DNA from: Bernardetia sp.
GTDB taxonomy: Bacteria; Bacteroidota; Bacteroidia; Cytophagales; Bernardetiaceae
Direction of reading: 5' to 3'
Assembly (NCBI GenBank): GCA_020630575.1
Contig: JAHDBD010000001.1
Location: 1 to 64,000, forward strand
DNA length: 64,000 nt
The stretch's first letter is position 1. Each line of letters starts with the position of its first letter. Both the position numbers and the translations under genes were made by a program. Of the stretch, positions 8,711-25,659 are shown piece by piece. The notes below the pieces were generated by a model, which worked only from the letters and a program-made list of their open reading frames with translations, was not told where the DNA came from and did not search any database.

Positions 8711-8799
8711 TTTCCTATGTTTTGAGCTGACAAGAGCAAGAACTTGCTTAGATTAGTGGAAGAGAAGCAAAAATTGCTACTAAAAAAATATCAATCAGA

Positions 8800-9684
8800 T
8801 TAAATTACCTGTCCTATTTTTTCACCCATTTTCACATACGTTTCCAAATCATTCTTAGTATTTTGGAGTAAATCTTCATCTATTTTAAAATGAGCAGAAT
8901 CAAATAATAACACAATAGTTGAACCTCCAAAAGCAAAATAACCCATTTCGTCGCCTTTTTCTACAACTGTATTGGGTTGATAAGTCGCATTGAGACTTCC
9001 AACCATTGTAGCACCAACAGGAATAATTAATATATCTCCTTTATTGTCTGTTTTTAATTCACATGTTTCTTTTTTATTCTCGCAAAAAACTTTTGTGAAA
9101 TTATCACGCAAACCAATTGGAGAAACCGAATAATACGTTCCTTTTATCTCCTTTGATTTTGATGGAATTCCTTTAAATGGAAAATGGTATCTATGATAGT
9201 CTTCAGGAGCTAAACGCAAAATAACCATTGAAGCATCTTTATACTTATCTACCAATTCATTATCTTTTAAAAATTCTGTTAGCGTAAACTCTCGTCCTTT
9301 TACATAAAAACTATTGACTTCTGAAATCTTTTCAAAAGCTAAAATTCTCCCATCACCGGGTGAAACAAGACCTTCCTCAATTTTACGAGCACCTTCCTTT
9401 AGTTCTCTATAAAAAAAATCATTAAAAGATTTGAATGCGCTTACATCTTTCTTAAACTGACTCATATCTATGTTTGCAGCATCAATAAAGGATTGGATTC
9501 TACTTATAGAAGAAGAACTATCCATCATTTTGCCATACAATTCTGTTATAAATTTTTGTTTGGCTATAGGTAAAATTAATTTTTCTCCAAATGAATTATT
9601 ATATAAAAAGTTTATTAATCCCTCTGCTGGAGGATGCTCAACTTTTATCTTACCAGTAGCTCTATTTATGTATTTAATCTCCAT
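8800..9684 (-). CDS. psd: Phosphatidylserine decarboxylase proenzyme
   Basis: 294 residues. Makes phosphatidylethanolamine from phosphatidylserine using a pyruvoyl group formed by self-cleavage. The cleavage motif is FGGSTIVLLF near residue 256 (GGST in place of the E. coli LGST), so processing should occur between Gly and Ser. APEDYHRYHFPFKG holds the conserved His of the family, and SPGDGRILAFE matches the SPvDG block. The GGST form and length resemble the type found in Chlamydiae, Clostridia and Bacteroidota. Minus strand, convergent with the GT9 gene; both sides have hairpins. Confidence 0.95.
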   Translation of the reverse strand: MEIKYINRATGKIKVEHPPAEGLINFLYNNSFGEKLILPIAKQKFITELYGKMMDSSSSISRIQSFIDAANIDMSQFKKDVSAFKSFNDFFYRELKEGARKIEEGLVSPGDGRILAFEKISEVNSFYVKGREFTLTEFLKDNELVDKYKDASMVILRLAPEDYHRYHFPFKGIPSKSKEIKGTYYSVSPIGLRDNFTKVFCENKKETCELKTDNKGDILIIPVGATMVGSLNATYQPNTVVEKGDEMGYFAFGGSTIVLLFDSAHFKIDEDLLQNTKNDLETYVKMGEKIGQVI

Positions 9685-9937
9685 TTTATGAATTTAATTT
9701 TTGATTAGTTGCCTTCTTTATTTAAGTAGTCGAATCTTTGTTAGTTTTGATAGCCTATTTTAGTTACGCAATTTATGAATTTCCACTAAAATCATTTTTA
9801 TAATTAAAAATAAAAAAAAGACTTCTAAATAAAATTCTACTCTTTTTGAGCTACTCAGAATCATAATTAAGACCAATAAAAGCTAAACCTTTTCTTGTTG
9901 AGTTCTGTTTTTAGCCTATCACAAAATATAAAGTAAA

Positions 9938-11029
9938 TTGACAGCTTCACTTCGTAAAATAATACATATAGATATGGATGCTTTTTTTGCTTCAGTAGAG
10001 CAAAGAGACAATCCTGAACTAAAAGGAAAACCTGTTGCTGTGGGTGGAGATGGCAAACGAGGTGTAGTAGCAGCAGCAAGTTATGAAGCACGTAAGTATG
10101 GAGTTTATTCTGCCATGTCTTCTAAAATTGCATTGCAAAAATGCCCTCACTTGATTTTTGTACGTCCTCGTTTTGAAGTATATAGAGAAGTTTCGTTACA
10201 GATTAGAGAAATTTTTTCAGAATATACAGATTTGATAGAACCTCTTTCTTTAGATGAAGCGTATTTAGATGTAACACAAAACAAAAAGCAGTTTCCTTCT
10301 GCTACTTTACTCGCTCGTCAAATTAAAGAAGAAATAAAAGCCAAAACTCAATTAACAGCTTCTGCTGGAATATCCTTCAATAAATTTTTAGCCAAAATAG
10401 CTTCTGATTTTAACAAACCAAATGGATTATTTACTATTGTTCCTGCTGATTCTTCAATGTTTATAGATCAACTTCCTATCAAAAAAATTCATGGTATTGG
10501 CAAAGTAACAGCCAAAAAAATGCACCAATTAGGTATTTATACAGGAAAAGATTTGAAAAAATGGAAAAAGAACGATTTACTCAAACACTTTGGTAAAGCA
10601 GGAGGGTTTTATTTTCATATTGCTCAAGGACAAGATTACCGTCCTGTAAATCCAAATCGTATTCGAAAATCTATTGGAGCAGAACGCACTTTTTCGGAAG
10701 ATTTGTTTGAAGAAAATGAAATGATAGAAGCTCTCCAAAAAATCACACAAAAATTATCGCCACTACTTTTAGATAGAAATATACGAGGTAGAACGCTTAC
10801 TCTCAAAGTAAAATATGCAGATTTTAAACAGATTACTCGTAGTCAGACCAGCCTTGAAGGATTACAGACTGAAGATGATTTAGCAAAAATTTATATACCA
10901 TTACTTCGAAGTATTTTTCCTTTAAAAATAGGTGTTAGATTATTAGGTTTACAAGTTTCTAATCTAAGCAGCCAGCCAAATACAGAAACAAGTAACAAAA
11001 TAGGTATGCAACTGACTTTGTCTTTTTGA
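9938..11029 (+). CDS. dinB: DNA polymerase IV (Y family)
   Basis: 363 residues. Error-prone translesion polymerase. IHIDMDAFFASVEQRDNPEL holds the first catalytic Asp, and LSLDEAYLDVT the catalytic Asp-Glu pair. The helix-hairpin-helix KKIHGIGKVTAKKMHQLGI and the little-finger region follow. The start is a TTG codon at 9938 (MTASLRKIIHIDMD); the first in-frame ATG falls inside the IDMDAFF catalytic motif, so TTG is required. No clear beta-clamp peptide is visible, although the C terminus GMQLTLSF has the QLxLxF form of one. Confidence 0.95.
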   Translation: MTASLRKIIHIDMDAFFASVEQRDNPELKGKPVAVGGDGKRGVVAAASYEARKYGVYSAMSSKIALQKCPHLIFVRPRFEVYREVSLQIREIFSEYTDLIEPLSLDEAYLDVTQNKKQFPSATLLARQIKEEIKAKTQLTASAGISFNKFLAKIASDFNKPNGLFTIVPADSSMFIDQLPIKKIHGIGKVTAKKMHQLGIYTGKDLKKWKKNDLLKHFGKAGGFYFHIAQGQDYRPVNPNRIRKSIGAERTFSEDLFEENEMIEALQKITQKLSPLLLDRNIRGRTLTLKVKYADFKQITRSQTSLEGLQTEDDLAKIYIPLLRSIFPLKIGVRLLGLQVSNLSSQPNTETSNKIGMQLTLSF

Positions 11030-11096
11030 GTATTTTTATTGAAACTTTAATTATATAATCCCAACACATAACTGTATTTCAAATTTTGTATAGCAA

Positions 11097-12065
11097 ATGA
11101 AAATAAAGATTGATAAATTTATTTTGGCAATAATTAGTGTAATTATAATTGCCTATTTTCTACCTCAATGGGGAAGCAAAACAAGTCCTATACCTCTTGA
11201 TATAATTGGAAGTATTGGTATTGCACTGATTTTTTTCTTTTATGGATTAAAGTTAAGTCCTGAAAAACTAAAGAATGGCTTGAAAAATTGGAAACTGCAT
11301 ATTGTAGTGCAACTCTCCACATTTTTTGTTTTTCCACTACTTGTACTGTTATTTTATCCATTTATTAATACAGAACAAGGTCAAACATTGTGGTTATCTT
11401 TATTCTTTTTAGCAGCATTACCATCCACTGTATCATCTTCAGTAGTAATGGTTTCGATGGCGAAAGGAAATATTCCAGCAGCTATATTTAATGCAAGTAT
11501 TTCAGGATTGATAGGCATTGTCATTACGCCACTTTGGATGGGATTGTTTTTAACACAAGAAAATACCGACTTTAGCTTAGGAGTTATCTATATTAAACTT
11601 TTCACAGAAATACTTATTCCAGTTGTGATGGGATTTGTGTTACAAAAATTTCTAGGAAAATATGCGATAAAATATCAAAAACAGTTAGCTACCTTCGACA
11701 AATCGATTATCCTATTGATTATATATCGAAGTTTTTCAGAGTCGTTTGAAGACAATGTATTTAGTTCGTTACAAGTAAAAGACCTTTTAATTATTGCCTT
11801 AGCTGTAATTTTGCTCTTTTATTTTATGTATTATTTGACTGGCTATCTTGCTGAAAAATTAAAGTTTAATCAGGAAGATAGTATTACAGCACAATTTTGT
11901 GGGACTAAAAAGTCATTAGTACACGGCACAATATTTTCTAAAATTTTATTTCCTGCCACTTACCCAATAGGATTAATATTATTACCACTCATGTTATTTC
12001 ACGCCTTACAAATATTCATAATAAGCATAATAGCTTCAAAATTAGCAAAACGAATAGACAAATAA
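11097..12065 (+). CDS. Bile acid:sodium symporter-like transporter (SBF-like, YfeH type)
   Basis: 322 residues with about ten hydrophobic segments, matching the SBF-like branch (PF13593 type, E. coli YfeH). The block SSSVVMVSMAKGNIPAAIFN and the preceding FFLAALPSTV are characteristic of this branch, as is the later CGTKKSLVHGTIFSKILF. These inner membrane proteins are predicted sodium-coupled organic anion transporters; the substrate is unknown. Follows dinB by 67 bases on the same strand and could be co-transcribed. Confidence 0.88.
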   Translation: MKIKIDKFILAIISVIIIAYFLPQWGSKTSPIPLDIIGSIGIALIFFFYGLKLSPEKLKNGLKNWKLHIVVQLSTFFVFPLLVLLFYPFINTEQGQTLWLSLFFLAALPSTVSSSVVMVSMAKGNIPAAIFNASISGLIGIVITPLWMGLFLTQENTDFSLGVIYIKLFTEILIPVVMGFVLQKFLGKYAIKYQKQLATFDKSIILLIIYRSFSESFEDNVFSSLQVKDLLIIALAVILLFYFMYYLTGYLAEKLKFNQEDSITAQFCGTKKSLVHGTIFSKILFPATYPIGLILLPLMLFHALQIFIISIIASKLAKRIDK

Positions 12066-12215
12066 CGTGAACTCGGCATTAAATGAAATTAAGTATAAGA
12101 ACATTGTCTTTCTCCTTACTATGATTTTGAGGGATATTGTGAGAAATCAAAAATCAATTTATAAACTTTGAAGCGTTTTTTTGTTTGTATTTTTGTCTAT
12201 CTATTCTATTATTTT

Positions 12216-12258
12216 AAAATCCTCATTGACGGCTTCATTTGAGCTTCAACGACGGTTT
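12216..12258. repeat. CCGTCGTTGA/CCGTCAATGAGG repeat, copy 1
   Basis: Reads, on the minus strand, AAACCGTCGTTGA then CCGTCAATGAGGATTTT. Same family as 57502-57536. It lies 47 bases before the HD protein start. Confidence 0.5.
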
Positions 12259-12304
12259 ATTTTGCTATATTTCCATTGAGATAAAAAACAAAATTTATTC
12301 TTTT

Positions 12305-13543
12305 ATGAGCGATTATCCACAACAACGAAAAATCATCAACGACCCAGTTCATGGTTTTATTCGAATTCCTACAAAGCTAATTCTGAAACTTACCAATCAT
12401 CCTTATTTTCAGCGTTTGAGAAGAATAAAACAGTTGGGACTTACAGAATTTGTTTATCCAGGGGCATTGCATACTCGTTTTCATCATGCTTTGGGCGCAA
12501 TGAATTTGATGCGAATGGCTTTGGATACATTGCGATTAAAGGAGCATAAAATTTCTCATAAAGAATACGAATCGGCTTTGATTGCTATTTTGCTGCACGA
12601 TATTGGTCATGGTGCTTTTTCTCATGCGCTAGAATGTACGATTTTGAAAGATTGCCATCATGAAGAATTGTCACTTTTGCTCATGGAAAAATTAGAGGAA
12701 GAGTTTAATGGACAACTCAAAACAGCAATAGAAATTTTTAAAGGAAATTATCATCGTCCATTTTTTCATCAGCTTGTTTCTGGACAGTTAGATGTTGATA
12801 GAATGGATTATTTGCAACGAGATTGTTTTTTTACAGGCGTTTCGGAAGGAACAATCGGAGGAGAACGAATTATCAGAATGCTCAATTTGAGTGATGATAA
12901 ATTAGTTGTAGAAGAAAAAGGAGTGTATAGCATCGAACATTTTTTGAATGCTCGTAGAATGATGTACTGGCAGGTTTACTTACATAAAACAACTGTTTCG
13001 ACAGAACAAATGCTCATTCAAACTATCCGAAGAGCTAGGTTTTTGGTGCAAAATAATACAAAACTATTTGCTACTCCTTCACTTTCTTTTTTTTTAGAAA
13101 ATGAAATTACTTTAAATCAATTTAAAAATGATAAAAGCGTTTTAGATTTCTTTGTACAATTAGATGATTATGATATTTGGGCAAGTATAAAAGTTTGGAC
13201 AAAAAGTGAGGATAAAATTCTGTCTTCTCTTAGTAATATGTTAGTCAATCGTCGTCTTTTCAAAACGCATTTAACGACAGAAGAATTAGATCAGAACTTC
13301 AAGATTGAAATAAAAGAAAAGGTAAAAAAACAGTTTGGAATAGGCAATGATGAAATTTCTTTTTTAGTCTGTGAAGGAAAGATTAGTAACTCAGCTTACG
13401 CACTGGGAACAGGCGAAGAAATCTGTATTTTGAAAAAAAATGGCGAAGTGATAGACATTACAAATGCTTCCGATATTCCTTATTTACAGTCACTTACACA
13501 AGCTGTTACTAAAAATTATTTTTGTTATCCTAAGATGAAATAG
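12305..13543 (+). CDS. HD-domain phosphohydrolase (COG1078, dNTPase-like)
   Basis: 412 residues from ATG 12305 (MSDYPQQRKIINDPVHGFI); the frame extends to a TTG at 12239, but that extra part is unlike the family and overlaps an intergenic repeat. Family hallmarks: NDPVHGFI, the motif HTRFHHALGAMNLM, then the HD pair in LLHDIGHGAFSHALE, and DVDRMDYLQRD. Members are nucleotide phosphohydrolases related to SAMHD1 and dGTPase; the substrate is not predictable. The C-terminal half after residue 330 is divergent. Confidence 0.88.
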   Translation: MSDYPQQRKIINDPVHGFIRIPTKLILKLTNHPYFQRLRRIKQLGLTEFVYPGALHTRFHHALGAMNLMRMALDTLRLKEHKISHKEYESALIAILLHDIGHGAFSHALECTILKDCHHEELSLLLMEKLEEEFNGQLKTAIEIFKGNYHRPFFHQLVSGQLDVDRMDYLQRDCFFTGVSEGTIGGERIIRMLNLSDDKLVVEEKGVYSIEHFLNARRMMYWQVYLHKTTVSTEQMLIQTIRRARFLVQNNTKLFATPSLSFFLENEITLNQFKNDKSVLDFFVQLDDYDIWASIKVWTKSEDKILSSLSNMLVNRRLFKTHLTTEELDQNFKIEIKEKVKKQFGIGNDEISFLVCEGKISNSAYALGTGEEICILKKNGEVIDITNASDIPYLQSLTQAVTKNYFCYPKMK

Positions 13544-13661
13544 AGAATTTTTATTTTGAAAAATAAAAGATTTAGAACAGATTATTGAGTTGTTGAAAAA
13601 ACAATAAAACTGTTGATTGACTTGAAACGTTAGAAGAGTATAAACTTTTAAAAATAAAATT

Positions 13662-13922
13662 ATGAATACTATAGAAGTAGAAACAAAAACGCTTTCAGAA
13701 ACAAAACTAGAGTTGATGGAATGGATTGTAAAAATGGATATAAAAACCCTTAATCAATTTTTAGAAATCAAAAATCAGCTTAATGAAGACGATAAGAAAG
13801 AAAAACAAAGACATTTTCTTGAATTAGCAGGTTCATGGCAATCCGAAGAAACAGGTGAAGAGTTAGTCCAACAACTATACAAAGATAGGAGAGGTTTTGG
13901 TAGAGAAATAGAAGACCTTTAA
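13662..13922 (+). CDS. Antitoxin-like small protein without partner toxin
   Basis: 86 residues. The C-terminal half (ELAGSWQSEETGEELVQQLY, then KDRRGFGREIEDL) resembles the tail of VapB/DUF2281-type antitoxins, where a helical N-terminal domain is followed by a GxW segment and a toxin-wrapping arginine-rich tail. No PIN-domain or other toxin gene follows: the next gene starts on the opposite strand and ends 20 bases away. Either an orphan antitoxin or a misreading of a similar-looking regulator. Family resemblance is from memory. Confidence 0.6.
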   Translation: MNTIEVETKTLSETKLELMEWIVKMDIKTLNQFLEIKNQLNEDDKKEKQRHFLELAGSWQSEETGEELVQQLYKDRRGFGREIEDL

Positions 13923-13941
13923 AAGAATAAAATACAGTTTC

Positions 13942-14715
13942 TCAAAAAACACTCACACTCATTCCACCATCAACGGTTATATTTTGTCCTGTCAGATACG
14001 AAGATTTATCCATTGCCAAAAATGCAATTACAGAAGCCATTTCTTCTGCATCAGCTATTCTTCCCAACGGCGTTCTTAAAAGTATATTTTCTAATTTTTC
14101 TTTATTTTCAAAAACAGCTTCTGTGAGTGGTGTTTTGGTGTACCAAGGCGAAACAGTATTTACACGAATATTATCTTTTGCCCACTCAGTTGCAAAACTA
14201 CGTGTTTGTTGATTAATTCCACCCTTTGACATCGCATAAGGCAAACCACTATTTACATCCTGACTTCCTGCTACTGAACCCACATTGATAACAGATGCAG
14301 TTTGAGATTTTTGGAGTAAAGAATATAAAATTCTTGAAACCTCAAAAGGAGCTATCAAATTGATTTCCAGTATTTTTCGATATTCTTCTTCGCTATATTC
14401 TAAAGCTGATTTTCTGATATTTATTCCTGCATTATTTACCAAAATATCTAGTTTTTGCCAGTTTTTTTCTATCCAATCAAATACTTTTTTTCGGTCTGTT
14501 TTGCTGGTAACATCTGCTTTTATTCCTTTTACAAACGAATTTGGAAACTCTTTTTTAAGTTCTTTTTCCAAATTTTGAATTTCATCTTCATTACGAGCCG
14601 AAAACAAAACATCTGCACCCAGTTCTAAAAACTCAATAATTGTTGCTTTTCCAATTCCTTTTGAGCCACCTGTAACAAAGGCTTTTTTGTCTTTAAGATT
14701 CCAAGAAGTTTTCAT
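13942..14715 (-). CDS. Short-chain dehydrogenase/reductase (tropinone reductase-like)
   Basis: 257 residues, classical SDR. The cofactor motif VTGGSKGIGKATIIEF is at the N terminus, NNAG at about 92, the catalytic Ser in INVGSVAGSQ and the Tyr/Lys pair in YAMSKGG. The C terminus (LTGQNITVDGGMS) is standard. The charge near the end of beta-2 (FSARNEDE) favours NADPH. Its overall look fits the tropinone-reductase-like group; the substrate is unknown. It lies 68 bases downstream of a GbsR-type regulator on the same strand, suggesting a regulator-enzyme operon. Confidence 0.9.
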   Translation of the reverse strand: MKTSWNLKDKKAFVTGGSKGIGKATIIEFLELGADVLFSARNEDEIQNLEKELKKEFPNSFVKGIKADVTSKTDRKKVFDWIEKNWQKLDILVNNAGINIRKSALEYSEEEYRKILEINLIAPFEVSRILYSLLQKSQTASVINVGSVAGSQDVNSGLPYAMSKGGINQQTRSFATEWAKDNIRVNTVSPWYTKTPLTEAVFENKEKLENILLRTPLGRIADAEEMASVIAFLAMDKSSYLTGQNITVDGGMSVSVF

Positions 14716-14783
14716 TTTTAAATAATATTCAATTATAAATGTAATTTGTATTTAACTAATAATTTATCACTAACAACTAATCG

Positions 14784-15323
14784 TTATTTCAAGAATCGCT
14801 CAACAATCTTAGATTCAGAGGCTTTTATCATTACATCTAATGCTTTTTCTGCACGACTAGCAAAGGAATCTATTTGTTCCATCATTTCTTTAAACTCTTC
14901 TACTTCTTTATTTTTTTGTTCTAACAGTCCATTTGTTTCTAATTCTTTTTTATCTTTTTCTGAAAGTTCTATATTCTTTACATCCTCCAACATTTTCAAA
15001 ATAGGCTCTAATTCTCGTTTTCTACGCTCTCTCATTACTCGTCTTGTAATTTCCCACATATCTTTTTCAGCAGAAAAATATTCTTTTCTTTCTCCTATCT
15101 TGACTGTTTTTTCGATGAGCTGCCAGTCTATTAAGGCTCTCAAATTCATATTTGCGCTTCCTTGAGAAACTGATAAAGTATCTATAATTTCTTGTGCGCT
15201 AAGAGGCTCAGCAGAAACTAACAAGAGTGCATGAATCTGTGCCATTGTTCGGCTAATCCCCCAACTTGTTCCCAAGACACCCCAAGCTTGAATAAATTTT
15301 GCTTTTGCTTCGTCTAATTTCAT
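14784..15323 (-). CDS. GbsR/MarR family transcriptional regulator
   Basis: 179 residues. The N-terminal winged helix includes WGISRTMAQIHALLLVSAEPL and the recognition region IIDTLSVSQGSANMNLRALIDW, typical of GbsR-type repressors (choline/osmolyte sensing in Bacillus). The C-terminal half is a helical, highly charged dimerisation segment (MRERRKRELEPILKMLEDV). Probably controls itself and the downstream SDR gene. Minus-strand start at 15323, with a promoter-like box at 15381-15388. Confidence 0.85.
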   Translation of the reverse strand: MKLDEAKAKFIQAWGVLGTSWGISRTMAQIHALLLVSAEPLSAQEIIDTLSVSQGSANMNLRALIDWQLIEKTVKIGERKEYFSAEKDMWEITRRVMRERRKRELEPILKMLEDVKNIELSEKDKKELETNGLLEQKNKEVEEFKEMMEQIDSFASRAEKALDVMIKASESKIVERFLK

Positions 15324-15380
15324 TCTGTTATCAATTTATTATTTCTGTTCTTAGTGTAATTTTTACAGTCTAATTTATTA

Positions 15381-15388
15381 TAAAAGTA
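15381..15388 (-). promoter_or_regulatory. Possible -7 promoter box for the GbsR/SDR pair
   Basis: On the minus strand this reads TACTTTTA, seven of eight positions of the Bacteroidota -7 consensus TAnnTTTG, with a TTGA about 19 bases upstream as a possible -33 element. It is about 58 bases before the GbsR start codon. Read by eye only. Confidence 0.3.
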
Positions 15389-15509
15389 CAAAATTTCAAC
15401 TCAAATTTCAATCTCATTTGAAAGTCTGTAAAAGTAGTAGGCTAACGAAAAAATACGTATTTTAGTTATTGCTTTGGATTTTTAGTTTTTTATTCGTAAT
15501 TGAATACTT

Positions 15510-15517
15510 TATCTTTG
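15510..15517 (+). promoter_or_regulatory. -7 promoter box upstream of ribF
   Basis: TATCTTTG matches the Bacteroidota -7 consensus TAnnTTTG exactly and lies 43 bases before the ribF ATG. The -33 element is not clear; a T-rich tract lies at the right distance. Confidence 0.45.
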
Positions 15518-15560
15518 CTTTTATTTCCAAATTTCTACTAATAAATCTGTTTCTTCCTAG

Positions 15561-16496
15561 ATGAAAATTTACCGTAAGGTTTCAGAGTTTCCCGAACTTC
15601 AACATACAATCCTGACAAGTGGAACGTTTGACGGCGTACATTTAGGACATCAAAAAATTATTCAGCGTGTAGTCGACCTCAAAAAACGCACTCCAAATGC
15701 TCAAACTGTGGTTTTGACCTATCACCCTCATCCTCGTTTGGTGCTTTTTCCAGACCAAAAAGACTTAAAGTTACTGACTTCATTAGAAGAAAAAATCATT
15801 TTGTTAGAAGATTTAGGAATTGACCATTTGTGTGTAATTCCGTTTACCAAAAAGTTTGCAGAAACTTCTTCTGAAAATTTCATCAAAAGAATTATTCAAA
15901 AAAAGCTGCAAACTCGTCAGTTTGTCATTGGTTACGACCATCGTTTTGGAAAAAATAGAGAAGGAGGATTTGATTATCTAAAAGAAAATGAAGATAGATT
16001 TGGATTTAAAGTAGAAGAAATTTCAAGACAAGACATAGAAGACAATGCAATCAGTAGCACAAGAATTAGAAAAGCACTTTTTGATGGAGATATACAAACA
16101 GCAAACGAACTTTTAGGGTATGAATTTTCAATTACTGGAAAAGTAGTAAAAGGAAAGCAAATCGGAAGAACAATCGGCTATCCAACAGCAAATCTAAAGC
16201 TGACCGACAAACACAAACTTATTCCAAAACAGGGAATTTATGCCGTCCGAATTTATCATAAATATGAATATTATGGTGGAATGCTCAGTATTGGTGTTCG
16301 TCCGACGATAGGAAAAAATCTTAAACAAACCATTGAAGTAAATATTTTTGATTTTGATAAAGATATTTATGATAAAGATTTGACTTTGCAGTTTGTGAAA
16401 TTTTTGAGAGAAGAAGAAAAATATAATTCTTTAGATGAGCTAAAAGCACAACTTGCTAAGGATAAAGAGGAGAGTTTGGAGGTTTTGAAGGTTTAA
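15561..16496 (+). CDS. ribF: Bifunctional riboflavin kinase / FAD synthetase
   Basis: 311 residues, standard length. The N-terminal FAD synthetase (nucleotidyltransferase) domain has SGTFDGVHLGHQKII and, later, ISSTRIRKAL. The C-terminal riboflavin kinase domain begins near 185 with GKVVKGKQIGRTIGYPTANL, the flavokinase PTAN signature. The protein turns riboflavin into FMN and then FAD in the cytosol. Single gene, followed by a hairpin at 16501-16535. Confidence 0.97.
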   Translation: MKIYRKVSEFPELQHTILTSGTFDGVHLGHQKIIQRVVDLKKRTPNAQTVVLTYHPHPRLVLFPDQKDLKLLTSLEEKIILLEDLGIDHLCVIPFTKKFAETSSENFIKRIIQKKLQTRQFVIGYDHRFGKNREGGFDYLKENEDRFGFKVEEISRQDIEDNAISSTRIRKALFDGDIQTANELLGYEFSITGKVVKGKQIGRTIGYPTANLKLTDKHKLIPKQGIYAVRIYHKYEYYGGMLSIGVRPTIGKNLKQTIEVNIFDFDKDIYDKDLTLQFVKFLREEEKYNSLDELKAQLAKDKEESLEVLKV

Positions 16497-20168: not shown

Positions 20169-20678
20169 TTAGTCCCAATCTTGAGCCACAAATTTCATTC
20201 TTTTTCCGTCTTCAGAAGAAAGAGTCAAAAAGTGACCTTCTAAGTGATAAGTTGTCATATTAGAAATATTTTTTCCAAAGCTGGCTTCTAACTCCATATT
20301 TTCTTGACATGCCATTTTGGTCATTCCTGCTTGTGAAAAAGTTATATCATTCTTATTTTCATTTTGTGCACTTGTAGAGACTGTGAAAAAAATACTATTA
20401 CAACCCATAAAAGCATTTCCTTGGGCAATTCTTTTGCCATCCAAATCTGTTGTGATTTCTTTTAGTTTTGTAAGGTCTACTTTAGCTTTGGCTTTTATAA
20501 AGTCTTCTTTTGAAAAATTATTTCCATCATTTAGGTTCATATCTGTCATCATCCAAACTCTAGCTAATTTTTGGTTGTCAGTAAGATTTGATGTTTTCTT
20601 ATTGCTTTTACAGCTTGAAAATAAAATAGAAGTTGAAAAAATTAGAATAACAGATAAAAAAAGTGATTTGATAAACAT
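20169..20678 (-). CDS. META-domain lipoprotein (HslJ-like)
   Basis: 169 residues. The signal peptide ends in a lipobox (LFSSCKSN, Cys near 23), so it should be lipid-anchored. The body has the META/HslJ pattern: the ARVWMMTDM strand, GNAFMGCNSIFFTVS with the conserved GxxGCN, and MACQENMELEASF near the middle. META domains occur in heat-inducible and virulence-associated envelope proteins with no known activity. It lies 78 bases downstream of, and is read away from, the OmpA gene start on the same strand order. Confidence 0.82.
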   Translation of the reverse strand: MFIKSLFLSVILIFSTSILFSSCKSNKKTSNLTDNQKLARVWMMTDMNLNDGNNFSKEDFIKAKAKVDLTKLKEITTDLDGKRIAQGNAFMGCNSIFFTVSTSAQNENKNDITFSQAGMTKMACQENMELEASFGKNISNMTTYHLEGHFLTLSSEDGKRMKFVAQDWD

Positions 20679-20755: not shown

Positions 20756-20813
20756 AATAATCTCTACTATTTATGAAATAATAAGGATTATTCTATATAA
20801 GATGCTTTTTATA
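20756..20813 (+). repeat. Hairpin repeat element, copy 1 (left of RiPP gene)
   Basis: Arms 20756-20772 and 20776-20792 pair at 14 of 17 positions around a three-base loop, followed by TATAAGATGCTTT at 20796-20808. Copy 2 is at 21508-21578, in the same orientation, with the same tail. Both lie outside genes. Confidence 0.6.
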
Positions 20814-21117
20814 AAAATTATCACTTAACTTTATCATTTGAGTTTTATACAAAACTCAGACTCAGAAAGAATTAATTTTGGATGTTAAATCTTTTCAAGC
20901 AGTTTATAACATATACATTTTTTGAAACTCATTATACTTGTAAATAGCTAAAAATTCAATTGAAAAGCGAGTTTTGATTTAAAAAAAATATAAATATTTT
21001 TATTTTGAAATTTGTAGTTTTTTTTTAATATTTGTCTTAGTAATGTTATTATTACGTGTAAATCGCATAATAATATTGAAAATGTATTTTATATAACAAC
21101 AACTTAAATTTAATTTT

Positions 21118-21303
21118 ATGAAATCTTTGAAAAAGAAATTTGGGAAATTTGCCATTTCTCAAAAACAGACAAAACAGATTGTAGGTGGTTTTGATAATTG
21201 TGAGGTGGTTTATTGGTGTCAAGGAACAACTTATGCTACAGAAGCACAGTGTAATTCAAGTTGTAATACCCATTGTTTTGCGCAATTAGTATTTCCTTGC
21301 TAA
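21118..21303 (+). CDS. Cysteine-rich RiPP/bacteriocin-like precursor with double-glycine leader
   Basis: 61 residues. Residues 1-24 (MKSLKKKFGKFAISQKQTKQ then IVGG) have the form of the Bacteroidota natural-product precursor leaders that end in GG and are cut by a C39-peptidase ABC exporter. The predicted core, 25-61, has six Cys (28, 34, 45, 49, 53, 61) and six Ser/Thr. This could be disulfide-bonded, lanthionine-bridged or otherwise cross-linked. No modification enzyme or exporter is within this window. It has its own terminator at 21375-21443 and lies between two hairpin repeats. Upstream TTTG at 21031 may be part of a promoter. Confidence 0.75.
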   Translation: MKSLKKKFGKFAISQKQTKQIVGGFDNCEVVYWCQGTTYATEAQCNSSCNTHCFAQLVFPC

Positions 21304-21374
21304 ACTAAATAGTATTTAAATTATTCATATACTCTTTACTTACAAATAAAAGCAAGATTGTTAATAATAAAATG

Positions 21375-21443
21375 TAGTGATAAGAAATGAGAATATATAG
21401 AATGAAATTTTATATTATTCAAAATTCTATCACTATTTTTTTT
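21375..21443 (+). terminator. Hairpin terminator of the RiPP gene
   Basis: Arms TAGTGATAAGAA (21375-21386) and TTCTATCACTA (21425-21435) pair apart from one bulged A, and are followed by a run of eight T. It starts 71 bases after the precursor stop, which suggests a single-gene transcript. Confidence 0.6.
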
Positions 21444-21507
21444 AATGGGCTATTTAATAAATAAGCTAGAACTAGAAGAATAAAAATTAAAAAAAGTCAT
21501 AAAAAAA

Positions 21508-21578
21508 CTAATCCCTGACATTTTTAGAATAAACTAAATAAATGACAAGGATTAGCTTGTATAAGATGCTTTCATAAC
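21508..21578 (+). repeat. Hairpin repeat element, copy 2 (right of RiPP gene)
   Basis: Arms 21508-21523 and 21540-21555 pair at 14 of 16 positions around a 16-base loop, followed by the tail TATAAGATGCTTT (21560-21572) shared with copy 1. The stem differs from copy 1 by paired changes (CTAATCC/GGATTAG here, AATAATC/GATTATT there). Confidence 0.6.
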
Positions 21579-22899: not shown

Positions 22900-24891
22900 T
22901 TAAGACTTTTCCTTTTTCTCTTCTTTAGCTTCTTCTTGTTTCATTTCTGCCTCTCTGATGAGCTTCTTTTTTTCAGTAACAAAATGTTCTACTTGCTTTT
23001 TCAAAACAGGAAGAGGAATATGTCCATTTTTTAATAAAATTTCATGAAACTCTTTAAGATTAAAATTTTCTTCTAAGGCATCTTCTGTATACTCTCTTAA
23101 GTTATTGAAGTATATTTTCCCTATTTTATAAATGGTAGCTTGTGCAGGGCGAACTACTATTTTATCAACTTCATCTTTCATGTCTTCTCTAGGAAGTCCT
23201 GTATTTGCTACCAAAAAATCAATCGCTTCTTCTCTAGTCCATTGCTTTAGATGAATTCCCGTATCCACTACCAAAAGCGAAGTAATAAAAAGTTCATTCT
23301 GAATTTTTCCAATCTTGACATATAAGTCATCGTAGTAATTAATAGAATTTCTATTTTGTTCGGTCAGTAAATCGGCAAAATATCCCTCCCATCCTTCATA
23401 ATAGACATCAAACTGCAAAACTTTTCTAAAAGTAGGTATGTCTGTAAGTTGTTGTTCGTACCAAGATTGTATATAACGTCCTCCTGCTTTCTCATATACC
23501 CAAACTGGAATCTTATTCTGAGGAATAGTTTCAGCATTTTTTAGATTAATATACAAGGCTGGGCGTGTTTTATCGTGCCCTCCATGAAACTCCAATAAAG
23601 GCGCACTGTTTTCTAAAGGTAAAGGCACACGTACTAATTTAAGTGGTTCTTTGGGTTGATGCAAGAAAAAATTATCAAAAGCCTCAAAAGCAGAATCTGA
23701 GTAGTGCTGATAAGTGGCTAAATAATTTTTATTATTATTACCGATATTGAAATCATTAGGCAAACGATTATTTATTTTAGCTAAATTTTTTGAAATAGAG
23801 TCTTTTTGTGGGAATTTTAGGGAATCAAAAATACCTGTTAGTTCTTCTTTCAAATCACTAATTTCTCCTAATCCTCTAAAATGGTATTCTTCTGCTGACT
23901 CTTCTTGTGAAATGTGAGCATGAACCATCAGCATTGTATTATAATACATGATTGCTGTTGCGCTATCATAGCCTAATTTCCAAACTCCAGCATCATTATT
24001 TGATAATTCAATTTCTTCTTCTAAATAATTTAATAGTTTTTGATAAGCAGGAAAAACATCATCTTCTATTATTTCTTTTGCTTCTACTTGTAGTTCATGT
24101 TTTGCAAGGGGCAAAATTCGGTCTGAATACTCTACTTTACGAGAAAAATCTCTATACAATACATTATATTCTACATTTCTAGCAATAAAATCTTTTGTTT
24201 CTTCGATTACACGCTCTAATATAAAGCGAGGAGGAATTACATTTGATTCTTTTCTTGACTGTAAAAGCTGAATAAGTTGGTCAAATTTATCATCAAATTT
24301 TGATAAACGTTCTAAATAGTCTTCTGCATCTCCAAGCGTTTCAATTTGATGTACCTCCATCATAAAACGAGGTAGCTCCACTTGAATGCCTGTAATATGA
24401 TTTACAGGATATTCGTACTGACGGAAAGCATTTCTATAAATTTCTAACTCTAAATACCAGTCTAATATTTCAGTAGATAATAGTTCTTCTTCGTTTTGTT
24501 GGGAACGTTTGTAAGTTCTGAGCATTTCAAAATTGCGAACGATACTTTCTTCATAACGCCTATCACGTTCCTCATCAGAAATATCTGTCAAGAGGCTATT
24601 ATAATAAGTTATTCCATAATTGTCTAAAAGATGCAGACGACTCATAAGCTCTGGGTCATCTTGTCCGTATTCTATAAACATGCGCTCATAAAATAGCTCA
24701 ACACTAAAAGGTTTAAACCAAATTAGGTTACATACCCAAATACTAAAAATAATAAATGAAAAAACAAACAGACGTAAAATAACTTTTCCTATTTTTAGTT
24801 GTTCTAGGTAAGAAATTGTTTTATGACTTACATGAATCCATAACCTTCGCCACGCAAATTTAGTATGAACCACATCACCTCTACTCGCCAT
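22900..24891 (-). CDS. DUF885-family protein lacking the metal-site histidines
   Basis: 663 residues from ATG 24891 (MASRGDVVHTKF); the frame continues to 24951, but that would overlap the divergent gene's start. One membrane segment near the N terminus (VILRLFVFSFIIFSIWV). The family block VYYEGWEGYFADLLTE (DUF885 EGWxxY) is clear. The expected HExxxGHHLQ metal site upstream of it aligns with YEKAGGRYIQ, so all three His are gone while Glu, one Gly and Gln remain. Probably membrane-anchored and not a working zinc carboxypeptidase. Divergent from the YjjG-like gene with only 30 bases between starts. Confidence 0.8.
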   Translation of the reverse strand: MASRGDVVHTKFAWRRLWIHVSHKTISYLEQLKIGKVILRLFVFSFIIFSIWVCNLIWFKPFSVELFYERMFIEYGQDDPELMSRLHLLDNYGITYYNSLLTDISDEERDRRYEESIVRNFEMLRTYKRSQQNEEELLSTEILDWYLELEIYRNAFRQYEYPVNHITGIQVELPRFMMEVHQIETLGDAEDYLERLSKFDDKFDQLIQLLQSRKESNVIPPRFILERVIEETKDFIARNVEYNVLYRDFSRKVEYSDRILPLAKHELQVEAKEIIEDDVFPAYQKLLNYLEEEIELSNNDAGVWKLGYDSATAIMYYNTMLMVHAHISQEESAEEYHFRGLGEISDLKEELTGIFDSLKFPQKDSISKNLAKINNRLPNDFNIGNNNKNYLATYQHYSDSAFEAFDNFFLHQPKEPLKLVRVPLPLENSAPLLEFHGGHDKTRPALYINLKNAETIPQNKIPVWVYEKAGGRYIQSWYEQQLTDIPTFRKVLQFDVYYEGWEGYFADLLTEQNRNSINYYDDLYVKIGKIQNELFITSLLVVDTGIHLKQWTREEAIDFLVANTGLPREDMKDEVDKIVVRPAQATIYKIGKIYFNNLREYTEDALEENFNLKEFHEILLKNGHIPLPVLKKQVEHFVTEKKKLIREAEMKQEEAKEEKKEKS

Positions 24892-24921
24892 ATTGAGCGT
24901 AGTATTTCTGCTGGGAATATT

Positions 24922-25659
24922 ATGTTGAATATCTTCTTTGATCTCGACCATACATTATGGGATTTTGAGCAAAATTCTAAACAAACTTTATTTAGTTTGT
25001 ATCAAAAGTATGAATTATCTGATAAAATTATTAATAATGAAAAAATAAGTTTTGACGATTTTTTGAAAGCCTTCCAAACTACGACTAAATTTCTTTGGAA
25101 ACAACATCATGAGGGCTTGGTAGACAAAGTAAAGATAAGACAACGTCGTTTTACACATATCTTTGAAGAGCTATATAAAATGAAAAAGAAAGAAGAACTA
25201 TTTGATAGAAATCTATACACTAATCTTTTGGAAGAATTAGAAAACGAATATCAATATAATTGTCCTCGTCAGCCCAATCTTTTACCGTTTGCTTTAGAAA
25301 TGCTTACTTATTTGCAATCTAAAGGCTATCAACTTCATATCCTTACCAATGGTTTTAAGGAAAGCCAAAAACTAAAATTACAACATTCAGGTATTTTGCA
25401 TTTTTTTAAAAACATTGTTACATCAGATTGTACAGGATTTACCAAACCTAATCCTATTATTTTCAATCATGCACTCGCTATCTCTAACGCTACACCTCAA
25501 AACTCTATTATGATTGGAGATAGTTTTGACGCTGATATTTTGGGCGCACGCTCTTTAGGAATGAAAACTATTTTTTATAATCCATTAAAAAAAACACCTC
25601 AGCATTCTGTTGCTAGTTATGATATTTCGTGTTGGCGAGAAATTGAAGGTATTTTGTAA
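24922..25659 (+). CDS. YjjG-type HAD-superfamily noncanonical pyrimidine nucleotidase
   Basis: 245 residues from ATG 24922 (MLNIFFDLDHTLWDFEQNS); the frame opens earlier at 24865, but only this start puts the catalytic motif at the N terminus. HAD motif I FFDLDHTLWDF is typical of YjjG nucleotidases, motif II is LTNGF, and motif IV is MIGDSFDADILGARSLGM. The family removes phosphate from damaged or noncanonical pyrimidine nucleotides. Cytosolic. A hairpin follows at 25714. Confidence 0.9.
   Translation: MLNIFFDLDHTLWDFEQNSKQTLFSLYQKYELSDKIINNEKISFDDFLKAFQTTTKFLWKQHHEGLVDKVKIRQRRFTHIFEELYKMKKKEELFDRNLYTNLLEELENEYQYNCPRQPNLLPFALEMLTYLQSKGYQLHILTNGFKESQKLKLQHSGILHFFKNIVTSDCTGFTKPNPIIFNHALAISNATPQNSIMIGDSFDADILGARSLGMKTIFYNPLKKTPQHSVASYDISCWREIEGIL

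Follow-up and report, generated by a model that had tools for sequence, protein, structure and literature searches.

A solitary gene encoding a six-cysteine, double-glycine leader peptide in Bernardetia sp., and its candidate shared export and redox machinery

Known export systems and the precursor gene

Substrates of PCAT exporters typically carry a short leader that ends in GG, with hydrophobic residues near positions -4 and -12. For bacterial peptides rich in disulfides, the usual assumption is that general oxidases assist their folding once they have been exported. The closest known system to that described below is represented by the bacteroidetocins, proposed as class IIf bacteriocins (Coyne et al. 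2019, PMC6671954). These are defined by a leader of 15-16 aa ending in GG and a mature peptide of 42-48 aa, with four similarly placed Cys residues in the core members, and their four-gene region encodes a five-TM protein, the peptide, a thiol oxidoreductase and a C39-ABC protein (PMC6671954).

The two systems are alike in their logic: each consists of a small, Cys-rich Bacteroidota peptide with a GG leader, a C39-ABC exporter and a dedicated thiol oxidoreductase thought to form disulfides, with no obvious immunity gene. They differ in leader length (24 instead of 15-16 aa), length of the mature peptide (37 instead of 42-48 aa), number of Cys residues (six instead of four) and gene set, since in the present case there are several precursors per exporter, the oxidoreductase is a C39-like/VKOR/thioredoxin membrane fusion, an HlyD-like partner is encoded, and no five-TM gene was seen. 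The four-gene region itself is also lacking, as neither an exporter nor a redox partner lies beside the precursor gene; the exporter and a different oxidoreductase are encoded elsewhere.

The precursor gene occupies positions 21118-21303 (+ strand) of the window, i.e. the whole 64-kb stretch of DNA analyzed. It encodes a peptide of 61 aa (MKSLKKKFGKFAISQKQTKQIVGG / FDNCEVVYWCQGTTYATEAQCNSSCNTHCFAQLVFPC), comprised of a 24-residue leader ending in IVGG (codons 21118-21189) and a 37-residue core (codons 21190-21300), followed by the stop codon (21301-21303). The core contains six Ser/Thr and six Cys residues, the latter at positions 28, 34, 45, 49, 53 and 61 (with 5, 10, 3, 3 and 7 residues between them); translation of the ORF therefore bears out the gene layout given in the original prediction. 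The core is devoid of Lys and Arg and carries a net charge of -3, unlike most bacteriocins, which are cationic. The leader has I21 at -4, I13 at -12 and GG at positions 23-24, and thus fits the pattern of PCAT exporter substrates.

A leave-one-out leader profile, constructed from paralogues and relatives with the window peptide excluded, recovered the precursor with an E-value of 5e-17, and this was the sole significant match among the 1771 six-frame ORFs of the window. Moreover, genome G003, assigned by computed placement to the same species as the source genome, contains a copy that is 75% identical and retains all six Cys residues (E 2e-29). The profile match and this copy together indicate that the ORF is not a product of chance.

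The region upstream of the gene (20986-21117, + strand) is common to the paralogues (blastn) and is a putative promoter or 5′ UTR; positions 20986-21165 are 73% identical to the upstream region and leader of a paralogue located on contig C94. Downstream, a long terminator-like hairpin followed by a U-run was identified by folding at 21374-21443 (+ strand; hairpin 21374-21435, then U8, -17.4 kcal/mol, z -3.9). This supports the predicted possession of an own terminator, despite a strict scan for GC-rich terminators finding none; a standard sigma-70 scan was likewise uninformative in this AT-rich DNA. No match was found in Rfam.

Searches of Pfam, NCBIfam and the PDB sequences with the peptide or its core yielded nothing above threshold, so that the Cys pattern, originally described as foreign to any known class, indeed falls outside the curated families searched, with no Pfam or NCBIfam family above its cut-off. 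The families NF047798 (leader_Chryseo) and TIGR04149 also comprise GG-leader peptides of Bacteroidota, and some precursors of other genera encoded beside the fusion score on these models, whereas the window peptide does not match NF047798 and remains below the TIGR04149 cut-off. An AlphaFold model of the precursor, built from two sequences, shows a beta-beta-alpha-beta core, with block pLDDT values of 81-89 over residues 31-60. A comparison of the precursor model with the PDB gave no match with Z of 2 or more, the peptide being too short for conclusions.

The leader family and the C39-like/VKOR/thioredoxin fusion

The window contains no C39, VKOR, HlyD, LanB or LanC homologue of the kinds present elsewhere in the genome, and genome-wide profile searches placed no C39 peptidase or radical SAM domain within it. 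The reported absence of LanB/C, radical SAM and C39 exporter genes from the 64 kb was thus corroborated, and within the window the gene is an orphan. At the level of the genome (completeness 84.5%) it is not: the leader, MKxLKKKFGKFAxS...GG, occurs in ten copies (the window copy included) joined to unlike cores, and machinery genes are present at other loci. The suggestion that the machinery is encoded elsewhere and shared is well supported by these homologous leaders, a C39 exporter and a C39-like/VKOR/thioredoxin protein. The original prediction had named the lack of both homologous leaders and exporter in the genome as an argument against it; the proposed genome search revealed both, and this argument falls away.

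The exporter is a peptidase-containing ABC protein of 738 aa, encoded at about position 172,975 of the same contig, approximately 150 kb from the window gene. As in PCAT exporters (PCAT1, ComA, LahT), its Cys/His/Asp catalytic triad is intact, and it aligns with PCAT1 end to end; in the present system, unlike theirs, a further C39-like domain, which is non-catalytic, is carried by a distinct redox protein. A precursor of the same family adjoins the exporter gene (L040:9494-9616; G000:C31:172494-172616, - strand), and is truncated by an in-frame TAG after TWTC. Another C39-ABC and HlyD pair was found in L041 (G000:C44; 9598-13225), with a short, Cys-free GG peptide encoded on the opposite strand; it is possible that this pair constitutes a separate export system.

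On contig C94, the paralogue lies just upstream of a gene for a 550-residue protein with matches to Peptidase_C39 (PF03412), VKOR (PF07884) and thioredoxin. The gene downstream of it encodes an HlyD-like protein of 443 residues, which has no Pfam match, yet is recurrent in the clusters; on the opposite side there are genes for thioredoxin-fold proteins. The G003 copy of the window gene is similarly placed, about 120 bp upstream of a C39-like/VKOR/thioredoxin gene, with the HlyD-like gene next to it. The fused VKOR is the only VKOR of the source genome. A scan of the genome contigs for the fusion retrieved only one weak relative, the whole-genome search being far more sensitive.

The fusion protein has all the Cys residues characteristic of a VKOR-thioredoxin enzyme: (i) the VKOR loop pair (Cys214/Cys223), (ii) the VKOR CXXC motif (Cys295/Cys298) and (iii) the thioredoxin CXXC motif (CPPC; Cys429/Cys432), which are invariant in 16 homologues reaching down to about 20% identity. 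The catalytic Cys of C39 is absent from all 12 fusion sequences that were aligned to active C39 domains, and the His and Asp residues are mostly lost. The AlphaFold model of the fusion (mean pLDDT 79) matches the C39 domains of PCAT and LahT (Z about 15, 2 Å), including LahT with a bound leader (6mpz; Z 14.6, 1.9 Å), as well as VKOR (Z about 11) and ScsC/DsbA-like proteins (Z about 12). HlyB (3zua), likewise a membrane protein linked to export, also has a C39 fold that is non-catalytic; there, it is part of an ABC transporter and not of a VKOR-thioredoxin protein. The VKOR-type fusions of Synechococcus (3kp9, 4nv5) share the VKOR core, the two Cys pairs and a thioredoxin-fold partner; they lack the N-terminal C39-like domain and the extra membrane helix of the present fusion, whose active cysteines are, in addition, predicted from the charge pattern to be cytosolic. 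We found no paper on a C39-VKOR fusion in the openly accessible literature, so one may exist outside it.

The additional helix (predicted at about residues 152-170) precedes VKOR helix 1 and brings the total to six, so the C39-like and thioredoxin domains should share one side of the membrane. The mean number of Lys and Arg residues per loop in the 16 homologues is 4.4 before TM0, 0.4, 5.2 in the Cys-pair loop, 0.2, 2.0 in the CXXC loop, 0.3, and 5.4 after TM5. Every loop with redox-active Cys is therefore on the positively charged side, which suggests that the VKOR-thioredoxin module faces the cytosol. Such a location would fit the logic of the system, since the leader exists only in the cytosol. 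VKOR/DsbB forms that face the cytosol have been reported both from archaea and as products of engineering. In four VKOR-like proteins of the order that lack a C39 domain, most of the positive charge precedes helix 1, with 2-3 charges in loop 2-3 and a mixed distribution in the other loops. As loop 1 of human VKORC1 can break the positive-inside rule (PMC11208910), the cytosolic topology of the fusion has the status of a prediction.

The fusion is present in 21/148 genomes of the order and in 40 of 375 Bacteroidota genomes sampled across the phylum. Within the order, the leader (18/148) and the fusion co-occur in 11 genomes (p 5e-7; outside the genus p 0.014); the two are no more than about 6 kb apart in four genomes belonging to three further genera. 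Seven genomes have the leader without the fusion and ten the fusion without the leader, partly because other leader types are used: at the fusion loci of other families the leader type changes, while small genes for Cys-rich GG-leader peptides and genes for C39-ABC, HlyD-like and thioredoxin proteins recur. In two loci (L126:8634-10285 and L127:1771-3434; G034 and G016) the fusion is split into adjacent C39-like and VKOR-thioredoxin frames, due to either a frameshift or a true split.

Based on leader identity and gene neighborhood, we infer that the exporter and the VKOR fusion act on the window peptide; against this link, the window gene itself adjoins no machinery gene, co-localization being confined to its copy in G003.

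The insertion site and the history of the gene

Comparison with the empty site of G003 (blastn) revealed that the precursor gene lies on an insertion of about 764 bp (20809-21572, right repeat copy included). The ends of the insertion are two repeat copies of AAGGATTA..TATAAGATGCTTT, each preceded by an imperfect hairpin: the left, native copy of the 26-bp direct repeat AAGGATTATTCTATATAAGATGCTTT (20783-20808) and the right copy (21547-21572), identical at 22/26 positions. The core pattern GGATTANNNNNTATAAGATG has two exact occurrences in the genome, both at this site. A mobile cassette was considered and rejected: the hairpin and TATAAGATG repeat is exact solely at the insertion site within the genome, so it is neither a dispersed cassette repeat nor part of an integron-like array.

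The site is flanked by a META-domain lipoprotein gene (20169-20678, - strand) on the left and a DUF885 gene (22900-24951, - strand), its conserved anchor, on the right. It is empty in G001, G002, G003 and G004. In G006, genes for a precursor and a thioredoxin lipoprotein are found there, together with 163 bp left of the VKOR-fusion gene (87% identical to the G005 gene). The G005 genome has the whole cluster, encoding the exporter, precursors, thioredoxin lipoproteins, VKOR fusion and HlyD-like protein, immediately next to the META gene; the opposite side is rearranged. As the cluster or its remains are found at the same place in these relatives, the solo gene is, to judge from the genome comparisons, situated at a recurrent home of the export cluster, and its presence on an insertion at this site would explain why it stands alone. 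The G006 genome carries two VKOR-fusion remnants (L061:4780-4939; G006:C65:35914-36075) adjoining surviving precursors, a picture of a decaying system.

The full cluster in G005, the remnants in G006 and the empty site in the other four genomes would also be expected if the window gene were a relic, left where an export cluster used to sit, with its expression or maturation lost; the truncation of the precursor beside the C39 exporter points in the same direction. This explanation is unlikely, because the ORF, the leader, all six Cys residues, the upstream homology and the terminator-like hairpin are intact. Furthermore, dN/dS relative to the G003 copy is about 0.24 (0.31 in the core; dN 0.156, dS 0.66), a value which, though calculated from a small sample of 61 codons, argues for constraint. 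The window gene and the G003 copy share 79% DNA identity, compared with 96% between the flanks of the window gene and G003. Given this difference and the dS value, the two genes are best regarded as alleles or paralogues of long standing and not as orthologues recently inherited by vertical descent.

Cysteine pairing and the proposed pathway

Even numbers of Cys residues are a prediction of paired cysteines and not of thioethers. The Cys count is even in 29 of the 30 sequence-distinct, Cys-containing core families (binomial p 3e-8 against one half) and in 34/35 precursors of other families of the phylum, compared with 48/78 control frames (Fisher p 1e-4 and 3e-5, respectively); precursors within a locus are related, though the first of these counts was made on collapsed families, and a GG-leader pattern was used to select the ORFs. 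The recurrence of the fusion beside GG-leader, Cys-rich precursors with almost always even Cys counts points to a disulfide-bonded exported peptide and not to a lanthipeptide. Only two intact precursors have odd counts (L032, G005:C1:2299557, and L231:7562-7774, with 3 and 7 Cys, respectively); these may reflect a frameshift, a dimer or a real exception. The cores of the family have an average net charge of -1.5.

The original prediction, which allowed for modification machinery encoded elsewhere, is supported in part: the cysteines most likely form disulfide pairs and are not modified by Lan or radical SAM enzymes. The genome does contain a class I lanthipeptide cluster with four precursors, two LanC and one LanB (L046, G000:C59:36001-56000; 8715-16327), and the core of the window peptide has both Ser/Thr and Cys, so that modification in trans might be envisaged. 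It is highly improbable, as the contig 59 precursors bear another type of leader (MKTNKKLKLNTKKVVILS..VQGG), no lanthipeptide leader model matches the window peptide, no LanB or LanC is encoded in the window, the G003 copy retains all Cys but just three Ser/Thr positions, and thioethers would not be expected to give even Cys counts. Still less credible is a radical-SAM-modified, TIGR04149-like peptide, since this model, the only one in NCBIfam with any match (residues 1-45), scores 13.3 bits against a cut-off of 25 (E 0.058), and none of the ten radical SAM matches of the genome is near a precursor or in the window.

We therefore return to a disulfide-bonded peptide: it is fairly probable, judging from the sequence comparisons, that the precursor yields a leader-read, disulfide-bonded and PCAT-exported peptide served by shared machinery. 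The precursor would belong to a set in which the leader is nearly constant while the Cys-rich cores vary, and whose machinery is encoded elsewhere. The leader would be recognized by the C39-like domain of the membrane fusion, and the VKOR and thioredoxin domains would oxidize the core cysteines, passing electrons to the membrane quinone. The 738-aa exporter would then cut after GG and export the core, and the HlyD-like adaptor and periplasmic thioredoxin-like proteins would complete export and folding. The predicted mature product is a small, secreted peptide stabilized by three disulfides; its end use would most likely be inter-bacterial (bacteriocin-like) or signaling.

More tentatively, with somewhat less than even probability, a Bacteroidota pathway extending across the phylum may be envisaged, in which the GG leader is read by a C39-like domain without catalytic function. 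This domain would hand the precursor over to a cytosol-facing VKOR-thioredoxin module, and disulfides would be installed under the guidance of the leader prior to export; a disulfide-forming enzyme would thereby serve a multitude of hypervariable cores as a maturase of the RiPP type. The dedicated oxidase apparently carries its own leader reader and serves sets of unlike cores. If so, the C39-like/VKOR/thioredoxin fusion would provide a genome-mining handle for many uncharacterized secreted peptides, the occurrence of solo precursor genes distant from any exporter would be explained, and leader-guided disulfide installation in the cytosol would become a directly testable question.

Several single precursors are followed by genes for lipoproteins of approximately 610 residues with a C-terminal TlpA-like thioredoxin domain (L052, L056-L057; e.g. 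L052:7291-9132). It is possible that these proteins act as peptide-specific isomerases or in immunity.
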